A DNA stretch of 59,496 nt from assembly GCA_937124585.1 (NCBI GenBank), contig CAKZKT010000003.1:1-59496 (forward strand), read 5' to 3'. Made by a program: the position numbers and the translations under genes. Shown here piece by piece: positions 6,379-19,178 of this stretch. Source of the stretch: an uncultured Anaerolineae bacterium (GTDB taxonomy: Bacteria > Chloroflexota > Anaerolineae > CG2-30-64-16). Every line of letters begins with the position of its first letter. Position 1 is the first letter of the stretch. Below the pieces are notes generated by a model that searched no databases, was not told the origin of the DNA, and was given only the letters and a program-made list of their open reading frames with translations.

Positions 6379-6408
6379 TTGGACTTGCAGCCGGTGAGAT
6401 GCTACAAT
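6379..6408 (+). promoter_or_regulatory. Promoter of response regulator-kinase operon
   Basis: TTGGAC at 6379-6384, an 18-bp spacer, and TACAAT at 6403-6408 with an extended -10 TG (6400-6401). It predicts transcription from about 6415, upstream of the regulator start at 6452. Confidence 0.6.
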
Positions 6409-6451: not shown

Positions 6452-7129
6452 ATGGCCGAACGAATTCTTGTCATCGAAGATGATGCGCAGATCGCCGATC
6501 TGTTGCGTCGTGGTCTGATCTACGAAGGGTATGCCGTCGAGGTGGCGACCGACGGCGAAAGCGGTCTCAGCGCGGCGCGCGACCGGCCGCCCGATATCGT
6601 GCTGCTCGATCTGATGTTGCCCGGCGTAGACGGGCTGACAGTGTGTCGCCGGCTGCGCGCAGCGAGCAATGTGCCCATCCTGATCCTGACGGCGAAGGAA
6701 GCCGTGCCCGATCGCGTGGTGGGCCTGGATGCCGGCGCCGACGATTATCTGGTGAAGCCGTTCAGCTTCGATGAGCTCCTGGCGCGCATCCGCGCGTTGC
6801 TCCGGCGTCAGCAGCGCACCGGAACATCCGACGAACTGCATTTCGCCGATCTGACCATGAATCTCGGCAGCCGCGAGGTGCGCCGCGGCAACCGACGCAT
6901 CGAGCTCACCGCGCGCGAGTTCGAGCTGCTGGCGCTTTTCATGCAGAATCCGCGCCAGGTGCTGACGCGCGATGTGCTCTATGACCGGATTTGGGGCTAT
7001 GATTTCGGCGGCGAGTCGAACATCATCGAGGTGTACATTCGCTATTTGCGCGCCAAACTGGAGGAGCATGGCGAACCCCGGCTGATCCAGACGGTGCGCG
7101 GGGTCGGCTACGCGCTGCGGGAAGAATGA
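6452..7129 (+). CDS. OmpR-family response regulator
   Basis: 225-aa two-component regulator. The receiver domain has acidic residues Asp10/Asp11, phospho-acceptor Asp53 (VLLDLMLPG) and Lys102 (VKPF). The C-terminal winged-helix DNA-binding domain ends in [10 protein letters not shown]-type sequence typical of the OmpR/PhoB class. The start is set at [11 protein letters not shown], preceded by GAGAG; the frame is open 15 codons further up to an ATG that nearly coincides with the -10 box. The kinase gene follows after 4 bases. OmpR-class regulators bind 7-bp direct repeats at 11-bp spacing, and such a site exists before the MacAB-like operon (19102-19130). A link between the two is speculative. 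Confidence 0.93.
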
Positions 7130-7133
7130 CCGC

Positions 7134-8552
7134 ATGTCCATTCGTCTCAAATTGACCCTCTGGTACACCGGCCTGCTGGCGTTCTCGTTGCTGGGCTTCA
7201 GCGCGCTGCTCTACTCGTTGATCGCCAGCCTGCTGCTGTCCGCCATGGACGACCGGCTGGCCGGTCAGGCCCAAGACGTCATCAGCCTGATCCAGAGCGA
7301 GAACGATCCGGCCGCGGTGCTCCTGTCGGGCCGCGTCCGGCTGCCCTCGATTGATGTTTTCGCCTCGCAATACTACATCCAGATCGTCCAGGCAGACGGC
7401 CGGCCGGTGCAGCTTTCCGAGAACCTGCACAATCGCGAGCTGCCGATCCCGGCCTCTGTGGTCCAGGAGATCGCGTCTGGCCGCGCGCGCGCCTACACCG
7501 TGCAGACGAGCAGCGACGCGCGGCTGCGTGTGGTCAGCGTGCCGCTGGTCGTGGCGCGGCGGCCGGTGGGCGCGGTGCAGGTGGCCCAAAACCTCGCGGC
7601 GATCGAGGACGCGCTGCGCGTGATCCGGGCCGTCATGTTGTTCGGCGGCGCGTTCGCGCTGCTGTTGGCCGCCATCGGCGGCGCATTCCTGGCGCGCACG
7701 GTGTTGCGGCCGGTGGAGGCGATCACGCGCACCGCCGAACGCATCACCCTCGCCGAAGATCTGAGCCAGCGCATTCCTAGCGCCGGCCCGAACGACGAGT
7801 TGGGCCGACTGGTGAAGACCATCAACAGCATGTTGGCGCGGCTGGAAACCCTCTTTCAGGCCCAGCAGCGCCTGGTAGCCGATGTCAGCCACGACCTGCG
7901 CACCCCTCTGACGACGATTCAGGGCAACGTAGACCTGCTGCGTCGAGGCGCCGCGGATGACCCGGAGATGCGTGCCCAGGCGCTGCAGGCCATCGGCGAT
8001 GAAGCCGCGCGCATGCGGCGGATGGTCAATGACCTGCTGTTGCTGGCTCAGGCTGATGCCGGCCTGAAGCTTCAGCGCCAGCCAGTAGAAATGGATACGC
8101 TGCTGCTCGAGGTCTATCGGCAGGCGCAGGTGATGGCCGGCGATCGCATCAACGTGCGGCTGGGCGCGGAAGATCAGGCGCTGGTGCTGGGCGAGAGCGA
8201 TCGCCTGCGGCAGCTGTTGCTGAATCTGGTGGACAATGCCCTGAAATACACGCCGGCAGGCGGCCAGGTCACCCTGACGCTGCGGCGTCGGGCCGGCTGG
8301 GTGCTGGTCACGGTGGAGGACACCGGCATCGGCATCAGCCCGGAAGATTTGCCGCACATCTTCGAACGTCACTACCGGGCCGACCGCAGCCGGAGTCGCT
8401 CCGGCGGCCATGGCCTGGGGCTGGCCATCGCCCAGTGGATCGCTCAGGCGCACGGCGGCCAGATCGAGGTGACCAGCGAGGTGGGCAAAGGCAGCATCTT
8501 CACCGTCCGGCTGCCCGATGCCACTGCCGAACCCGGTGTGAAACACAGTTGA
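7134..8552 (+). CDS. Sensor histidine kinase
   Basis: 472-aa membrane kinase, partner of the preceding regulator. It has TM1 at about residues 9-33, an extracytoplasmic sensor of about 130 aa, TM2 at about 164-186, and a HAMP domain to about 240. The HisKA domain has phospho-acceptor His253 ([11 protein letters not shown]), and the HATPase domain has an N box ([10 protein letters not shown]), G1 (VEDTGIGI) and G2 ([10 protein letters not shown]). The stop and start of the two genes are 4 bases apart, indicating co-translation. The signal is not identifiable from the sensor. Confidence 0.94.
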
Positions 8553-15375: not shown

Positions 15376-16608
<1,233 letters not shown>

Positions 16609-16636: not shown

Positions 16637-18295
16637 CTAACGTCCGATTGGCCGGGTGAACTGACGCAAGAGATTTGTCAACGGATTCTGGATGCTTCGA
16701 CTGACCGTCGTGCTCGTTGTCTGGGCCGCTTCGATTTCGATGACGATTTGGTCGCCGGGTTGGAGGCCGCTGAGGGCCTGGGCGTAGAGGCCATCGCTGA
16801 GTCCGAGTTCGACGGGGACGGCGATGGGGGTGAGGTGGGGGTCGGCGGGGTTGCGCACGAGCACGTGGGGTTGGCCGTTGCGTCGCTGGATGGCGATGGC
16901 GGGGATGAGGAGGGCATCGGCGGCCTGGGCGACCTGGATTTGGACGTTGGCGGTCATGCCGACGAGGAGGGGGAGGCGTTGGGTGTTGGTGAGGGCGATG
17001 GGGACTTCGTAGACCATCACGCCGCCCTGGAGTTCGCCCTGGAGCGGGACTTCGCGGACCTGGCCGTGGAGGCGTTGGCCTGGGAAGGCGTCGAAGGTGA
17101 TGGTGGCGTTTTGGCAGGGGGCGATTCGGCGCAGGGTGATTTCGTCTATGGCGGCCATGATTTGGAGGGTGTTGAGGTTGGCGAGGGTGACGATGGGGGA
17201 GCTGGCCGCGATCTGGTCGCCGGGTGCGACATGGGTTTGGAGGATGGTGCCGGCGAAGGGGGCGGAGAGTTTGGTGCTGGCGAGGGCGGCTTGGGCTTCG
17301 CTGAGGGCGAGGCGTTTTTTGTCGAGGTTGGCCTAGGCGGCGGCAAGTTCGGCGGCATCCGGGCCGGCGTCCAGGCGGGTGCGTGTCTGTTGGGCTTCGA
17401 GCAGCGCCACCTCTGCCTCCTGCACGGCCAGTCGCGCTTTGGCCAGCGCCAACGCGCCGGCAGGCGTGGAGTCGGGCCCTGCTTGTGCTTCGGCCAGGGC
17501 CGTGCGCGCCTCTGCCAGGGTCCTCTCGGCTTTGCGCACGTTGATTTGGGCCTGCAACTGGTTCGTGACGCGTGAATCCTGGGCATCCATCATTCGGTTG
17601 TAGGCCAGTTCCAGGCGGTCTTGATAGTAGGCATCGGAATAGGTTTCGGCCGCCAGGCGATTGTACAGCGCAGTCGGCGTCGCTTCGGCCGTGATCAACC
17701 GGGCCAGCTGGTCTTTCGCGGCCGTGTCCTGTTGCCGCGAGAGCAGTTCGGCGCGTGCTTTGGCCAGCGCGCTCTCGGCTGCAGCGACGTCCGCTTCCAG
17801 GTCGGCAATGTCGGGGTGAAGGAGGGCTTCGAGTGCATCCTGGGCCTGGCGGAGTTGGACTTCGGCTTTGGTGACGGCGAGGTCGGCCTGGGCGATCTGG
17901 AGGGACGTGGGGGGTGCCGTCAGCGTGGCCAGCGCCTCCTCGGCGGCGCGCAGGTCGCTGAGCGCCTGCTCATACGTCTGCTGATAGGGGGTCGCATCTA
18001 TGGTGGCCAGCACCTGGCCGGCCGTCACCACATGGCCGGCGCGCACCTCCAGGGTCTGGAGCCTGGCCGATCCGCTCATGCGGCTGAAGGTGAGCTGGCT
18101 GTGCTGGATTGCCTCCACCTGGCCGACCACCGTGACGGTGCTGCTCAGGCTGCCCTGCTGCACGGTCACGACCTGGGTGTACGTGCCGCTCTCGCCGCCC
18201 GTTGTCGCCGCCCGCAGCCGATAGTACCAGTACCCGCCCGCTGCCAACAATCCGATGCTCAGAAAAATCACCGTCCATCGTACGACTTGGCGCAT
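16637..18295 (-). pseudogene. MacA/HlyD-family adaptor split by one in-frame TAG
   Basis: Membrane-fusion/adaptor protein of the adjacent ABC exporter. The start at 18295 (MRQVVRW, GGAGG upstream) gives a TM helix (about residues 5-25), a lipoyl/barrel-sandwich half motif, and a long alpha-helical hairpin rich in Ala/Glu/Gln. At 17333-17335 the frame meets TAG, yet the same frame runs on with no other stop to 16637 and encodes the rest of the family: ...AQAALASTKLSAPFAGTIL, the second lipoyl half, the beta-barrel and the membrane-proximal domain. A single C-to-T change of a CAG (Gln) in the coiled coil explains it. It could be a nonsense mutation, a population variant, a sequencing error or suppression. 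Codon use also changes near this point. Confidence 0.85.
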
Positions 18296-18314
18296 CGTTT
18301 CATTCCTCCCGGTG

Positions 18315-19010
18315 TCACAGCTTGGGCTCATCGCTCACGATCAGCCCATCTTGGAGCCGGATGATCCGTCGGGTGTGGGCTGCGAACAGCGGTTCATGGG
18401 TCACGAACACGATCGTAATGCCGTGGTTTGCATTCAAATCCAGAAACACGCGCATCACCTCCTCGCCTGCTGCGGAGTCCAGGTTGCCGGTCGGCTCATC
18501 GGCCAGGATCAGGCTCGGCGAGTTCACCAGGGCGCGCGCAATGGCAACGCGCTGCTGCTGTCCGCCAGAGAGCTCGTTGGGCCGATGGTGCATCCGGTCG
18601 CCCAGGCCGACCATCTTCAGCGCGGCCACACACCGTTCACGGCCTCGGCTGGCACCGGCATAGATGAGCGGCAGTTCGACGTTGGCAAGGGCTGACATGC
18701 GGGGCAGAAGATTGAAGTTCTGGAAGACGAAACCGATTTTTTTTCGATTGCGGATGTCGGCCAGGCGGTTGGCGTCCATCTTGGCGACATCCTGGCCCTC
18801 CAGCAGGTAGGTGCCTTCGGTCGGCACGTCGAGCGCGCCGAGGATATTCATCAGGGTGGATTTGCCCGAACCGGAGGGGCCCATGATGGCGAACATTTCA
18901 CCGGCGCAGATCTGAAATGAAACCCCGCGCAGCGCGTGCACGGCCAGATTGCCCATGCGGTAGACTTTCGTAACGTTTCTAACCACGATCAGAGGCTGTT
19001 CCTGCGCCAT
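18315..19010 (-). CDS. ABC transporter ATP-binding protein (MacB/LolD type)
   Basis: 231-aa ATPase of the three-gene exporter. Walker A is GPSGSGKST, the Q loop lies in FQNFNLLP, the signature is LSGGQQQR, Walker B is [12 protein letters not shown], and the switch His is in VTHEP. The start at 19010 (MAQEQP) has GAGGTG seven bases upstream; the frame is open a little further. It is followed after 19 bases by the adaptor gene. It lies downstream of a triple direct-repeat operator at 19102-19130. Confidence 0.93.
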
Positions 19011-19101
19011 GGCATGGCACCTCATGATAGGGACGCCGGTCAATCGCAGCACACGAGCACGGTTTGCCGGTGGCTTCTGTCAGTTTATGATCGCATTTGA
19101 T

Positions 19102-19130
19102 GCTGAGATGAAGCTGAGAAAAGGCTGAAT
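19102..19130. promoter_or_regulatory. Triple 11-bp direct repeat, OmpR-class operator candidate
   Basis: Three 7-bp units GCTGAGA, GCTGAGA and GCTGAAT start at 19102, 19113 and 19124, exactly 11 bp apart with 4-bp AG-rich spacers. This is the arrangement bound by OmpR/PhoB-class regulators. On the minus strand a TAAACT -10-like box (19082-19087) follows, so the site overlaps the -35 region of the ABC operon, as for class II activation. Confidence 0.65.
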
Positions 19131-19178
19131 CTATGCCGAGAGGGTTCCGGGCGCAGGTCGAGCGGATGAGCGCGCCCA

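Follow-up and report, generated by a model that had tools for sequence, protein, structure and literature searches.

The window, the whole stretch of 59,496 nucleotides analysed here, is contig C3 of genome G000 (C numbers denote contigs of this genome) and was compared with 60 related genomes. On its minus strand it carries an operon encoding an ABC ATPase, a membrane-fusion protein (MFP) and a MacB_PCD/FtsX permease, the gene set of a MacAB-type exporter. Upstream of the operon and on the same strand lies an array of short direct repeats (Table 1). The MFP frame is broken by one TAG, past which clear homology resumes; the stop is either a sequencing error or the sign of an early pseudogene. 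An OmpR-family response regulator is encoded elsewhere in the window together with its partner kinase.

Table 1. Features of the window and the candidate regulator gene on contig C42
Feature	Position	Strand	Basis or remark
Operator unit 1 (distal), TCTCGGC	19135..19141	-	GCCGAGA on plus strand; 11-bp register; one mismatch to CTCAG core
Operator unit 2, ATTCAGC	19124..19130	-	GCTGAAT on plus strand; sequence, 11-bp register
Operator unit 3, TCTCAGC	19113..19119	-	GCTGAGA on plus strand; sequence, 11-bp register
Operator unit 4 (promoter-proximal), TCTCAGC	19102..19108	-	GCTGAGA on plus strand; sequence, 11-bp register
Predicted -10 hexamer, GATCAT	19087..19092	-	5 nt past the 44-bp array, the family offset
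MacB/LolD-type ABC ATPase, first gene of the operon	18315..19010	-	ATG at 19010; Pfam ABC_tran; NCBIfam MacB/LolD below cut-off
Membrane-fusion (HlyD/RND-MFP-like) subunit	16637..18331	-	frame broken by one TAG, 17333-17335
MacB-type permease	15376..16608	-	MacB_PCD and FtsX
OmpR-family response regulator	6452..7129	+	no array in own promoter; less likely regulator of the operator
Histidine kinase, partner of the 6452 regulator	7134..8552	+	
C42 regulator, OmpR-family response regulator	G000:C42:28767-29441		adjoins its histidine kinase gene; own array upstream

Read on the minus strand from 19141 to 19098, the 44-bp array has the form TCTCGGC-atag-ATTCAGC-cttt-TCTCAGC-ttca-TCTCAGC-atca and is followed by aatgc and then by GATCAT. 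The earlier note had described three 7+4 repeats; their exact 11-bp steps stand, and a fourth unit in the same register, GCCGAGA at 19135-19141, had been overlooked. Four units are therefore present where two direct repeats at strict 11-bp steps, about one helical turn, are the minimum for an operator of the OmpR/PhoB class. The first two units are weak (TCTCGGC and ATTCAGC). By pattern search, the exact three-unit core pattern has a single perfect match in the window. A position-weight model trained on other arrays, with the window left out, gave the array a score of 37.2, whereas the best score among 12 synthetic controls of 59.5 kb was 1.8. With a held-out profile, the array was the sole match in the window (E=3e-05; E=0.0025 over the whole genome). 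Searching with two units and allowing one mismatch gave too much noise to be of use (165 matches, mostly in coding-like sequence). The repeat is real and, to all appearance, functional.

Genome-wide occurrences were counted by pattern and by profile searches. In the window's genome, the four-unit pattern gave 9 matches at six loci and the control patterns none; the held-out profile returned six sites, on C3, C42, C96, C134, C158 and C38. The recurrence of the motif, for which the earlier note had proposed a genome search, is thus confirmed. Across the 60 related genomes, 59 matches to the three-unit pattern were obtained, a number that includes overlapping registers of single arrays and some minisatellites, compared to 2 for the reversed control. 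The minisatellites in question, of the CTCAGGACAAG type, have the same 11-bp period, mimic the operator pattern in genomes G056, G377 and G217 and were set apart by their conserved spacers. They give some substance to the idea that the array of the window is itself a chance or mobile minisatellite repeat with no regulatory role, which we nevertheless regard as barely credible: conservation in the operator arrays is confined to the 7-bp units and does not extend to the 4-bp spacers, most arrays stand before genes, the offset to the -10 is fixed and control patterns have almost no matches.

A survey of the -10 position covered 25 arrays with four or more units and compared offsets up to 49. The hexamer 5 nt past the last unit has at least 4/6 matches to TATAAT in 16 of the 25 arrays, and the mean number of matches at this offset is 3.52/6 versus about 1.4 at most other offsets. 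With a chance of 0.026 per hexamer, the binomial tail is near 1e-19, relatedness of the arrays being ignored. Promoters of the response regulator (RR) genes use an offset of 6 nt instead of 5 nt. The hexamer of the window, GATCAT, has only 4/6 matches to TATAAT, and the identical hexamer is found at the C38 array. The earlier note had taken TAAACT (19087-19082) as the -10; this hexamer lies 5 bp beyond the family position and is probably 5 bp off, since GATCAT (19092-19087) occupies the expected place and is most likely the -10 of the window. At the 17-bp position upstream of GATCAT there is AGCTTC and no recognizable -35 hexamer, so that the array combines a fixed short distance to the -10 with the lack of a -35, as in operators of the OmpR/PhoB class. 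OmpR-family proteins can repress, and the end of the array is only 5 nt from the -10, so that a regulator bound across the promoter could in principle shut out RNA polymerase and block transcription. We consider a repressor site improbable, however, given that no -35 is recognizable in the window and that an array ending upstream of the -10 at a fixed, PhoB-like distance is the layout of activators.

In addition to the export operon of the window, the predicted targets of the arrays in the window's genome are a response regulator with its histidine kinase (C42), MFP-ABC-permease genes (C158), a VTC-domain protein (C96), a PTPS-related/DUF6541 membrane protein (C134) and a lipoprotein-like protein (C38), the last resembling, by eye only, the Cthe_2159-type target of G008. 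In relatives, arrays precede MFP/ABC operons (G004, G005, G008, G011), VTC genes (G005, G008), a DUF4956 locus (G007), a Cthe_2159 lipoprotein (G008), an HtrA-like protease (G011) and a GT87 membrane protein (G004). Orthologues of the ABC operon itself are preceded by an array in G004 (78% identity) and G005 (75%), which hold the best two same-family orthologues. By the two-unit score, G004 alone has an upstream array among 30 ABC orthologue loci; the array of G005 has degenerate middle units and was recovered by the position-weight model. The motif thus recurs upstream of orthologous operons, a check that the earlier note had proposed, in both nearest relatives that have the orthologue and the regulator. 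Together with the recurrence in the genome, this supports the reading of the repeat as an OmpR/PhoB-class operator.

Five genomes from the window's family have VTC-domain or DUF4956 genes at arrays (L107, L112, L113, L115, L288), which suggests common control with the exporter. At one of these loci (L112, in G004) the array faces a transposase-like ORF and not the VTC gene. In G042 (L121, L122, L123), arrays that share this geometry and have a CTCAG core, but start with C or A, stand before genes for a CopA-like copper ATPase and heavy-metal-domain proteins; these arrays beside copper-transport-type genes probably belong to a sister regulator whose motif is related.

The regulator of the array is most likely encoded outside the window, by the RR gene of contig C42. 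Nine genomes have an orthologue of this regulator (69-100% identity). Such orthologues, at 69% identity or more, have an upstream array in 8 of the 9 genomes compared to 0 of 21 for homologues at 63% identity or less (Fisher p=1.5e-6). Seven of the nine genes have two to four TCWCAGC-like units with a -10 less than 300 bp from the start; in G020 a three-unit array lies about 590 bp upstream, and in G011 an array at about 340 bp upstream was detected only later, by profile, and is not counted in the 8 of 9. Array sites occur in 9/9 genomes with a C42-type RR versus 3/51 without, and in 7/9 versus 3/51 (p=1e-5) when the RR's own promoter is left aside; these tests take related genomes as independent, and some of the sites also helped define the profile. 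Array-bearing genomes G003, G014 and G042 have no close C42-type RR. Overall, the operator is associated with the gene of an OmpR-family response regulator. The earlier note had remarked that two-component genes often adjoin such operons; this is so in G011, G020 and G047, where the RR-histidine kinase pair lies divergently beside MFP-ABC genes, whereas the operon of the window lies apart from its likely regulator but has the operator in front of it. The intergenic region shared by the two in G011 contains a pair of divergent four-unit arrays, and a -10 stands at the usual offset from each of them.

The closest named relatives of the C42 regulator, at 67% identity, belong to Chloroflexi MAGs and point to a host in that phylum. 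Distant RR homologues in other phyla mostly have no arrays; partial exceptions are two Chloroflexi MAGs at 67% identity (L174, L175), with two-unit TCACAGC pairs before a -10, another Chloroflexi MAG (L197), with a three-unit array, and an Actinomycetota MAG (L227), with a two-unit site. Upstream of the RR genes of L197, L174 and L175, inverted unit pairs (GCTGAGA/GCTGTGA) lie ahead of the direct pair that is close to the -10, a hint that these operators may be divergent or looped. Among 25 NCBIfam families listed, which include no MprA model, the C42 regulator falls below the cut-offs of PhoB, MtrA, NblR and other equivalogs, the best being NblR (250.5 compared to 300).

The regulator at 6452, which the earlier note had named among those to be footprinted, could in turn recognize the same kind of operator with its kinase as partner. 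It is the closest paralogue of the C42 regulator in the genome (53% identity), its gene lies 12 kb from the array, and its base-contact residues (N, I, E, V, Y, Y) are near-identical to those of the C42 regulator, so that the recognition helix alone does not discriminate between the two. We nonetheless hold this assignment to be unlikely: the 6452 regulator's promoter (TACAAT near 6401) has no array, no profile site was found near other homologues at 54-59% identity in G004, G005, G007 and G047, and arrays go with the C42-type clade and not with the 6452-type.

We consider it likely that the array is a class-II-type activator operator of an OmpR/PhoB-family regulator, most likely that of C42, serving the ABC operon. 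Four head-to-tail protomers of the phosphorylated regulator, forming two tandem dimers, would occupy the four 7-bp units (consensus TCWCAGC, with 4-bp gaps) upstream of a promoter with a -10 and without a -35. Once bound, the regulator would stand in for the -35 contact and recruit RNA polymerase to GATCAT, turning on the ATPase, MFP and MacB permease genes, and the C42 regulator would be under its own control through the same kind of array. From the nature of the targets, the stimulus would probably be envelope or export stress. There is good reason to think that the array marks a small regulon common to related uncultured, probably Chloroflexi, bacteria. Somewhat more tentatively, we favour an undescribed two-component regulon, probably of Chloroflexota, in which 44-bp four-unit operators, set at a constant distance from the -10, tie MacAB-like exporters to VTC-DUF4956/Cthe_2159-type operons, an HtrA-like protease and their own two-component system; no matching published motif was found in the open-access papers searched. 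If true, this regulon would provide a first clue, from regulation, to what the VTC-DUF4956 gene set does. The repeat has in this way led to a regulon that is open to testing, in bacteria that have been little studied: it comes with a candidate regulator and an operator consensus, as well as six predicted loci in one genome and targets that are conserved among relatives.

Compared with known systems, the export operon has the ATPase, MFP and MacB_PCD/FtsX permease of MacAB, but its ATPase and permease are separate genes and the cut-off of the MacB equivalog, the fused ATPase-permease of E. coli, was not reached (PRK10535 scores of 228 and 257 compared to 966). The operator itself appears to be of an already known kind, the PhoB/PhoP-type tandem operator. 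In the pho box of E. coli PhoB, head-to-tail winged-helix sites with an 11-bp period replace the -35 at a fixed short distance from the -10, and the array shares the head-to-tail 11-bp repeats and the fixed short distance; the pho box differs in its core, CTGTCAT, and usually has two units. The solved structures nearest to the C42 regulator are those of PrrA, the best-scoring, and of M. tuberculosis PhoP. The former belongs to the actinobacterial systems of the MprAB/PrrAB type, and MprAB, with its autoregulation and envelope-related targets, resembles the C42 system. The motif of C. glutamicum MprA, TKTTAAGAAM (PMC12113857), differs from the unit of the array.

The natural comparison is with M. 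tuberculosis PhoP, of which the C42 regulator is only a distant homologue with a different regulon. PhoP binds TCACAGC-N4-TCACAGC with a strict requirement for the 4-bp spacer, as well as tri- and tetra-repeats (PMC4832192). The array has the same 7-bp units, 11-bp steps and 4-bp spacer, shares 6 of the 7 consensus bases and can likewise be extended to three or four units; it differs in that arrays of four units at a constant distance from the -10 are the rule here. PhoP contacts bases through N212, V213, E215, S216, Y217 and Y220, and the third base pair only by a water-mediated contact via N212/S216 and Y220 (PMC4832192). When the C42 helix NVLEVYIGY is aligned with NVVESYVSY of PhoP, N212, V213, E215, Y217 and Y220 are kept; five of the six contact residues are thus conserved and S216 is replaced by V, as it is in the 6452 regulator, and the C42 regulator does not qualify as a PhoP orthologue. 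The third base of the unit is mostly T here and A in the PhoP operator, where the C42 regulator has Val for Ser216. A single base and a single contact residue thus seem to have changed in concert, which is compatible with, though no proof of, co-variation between the operator and its regulator.
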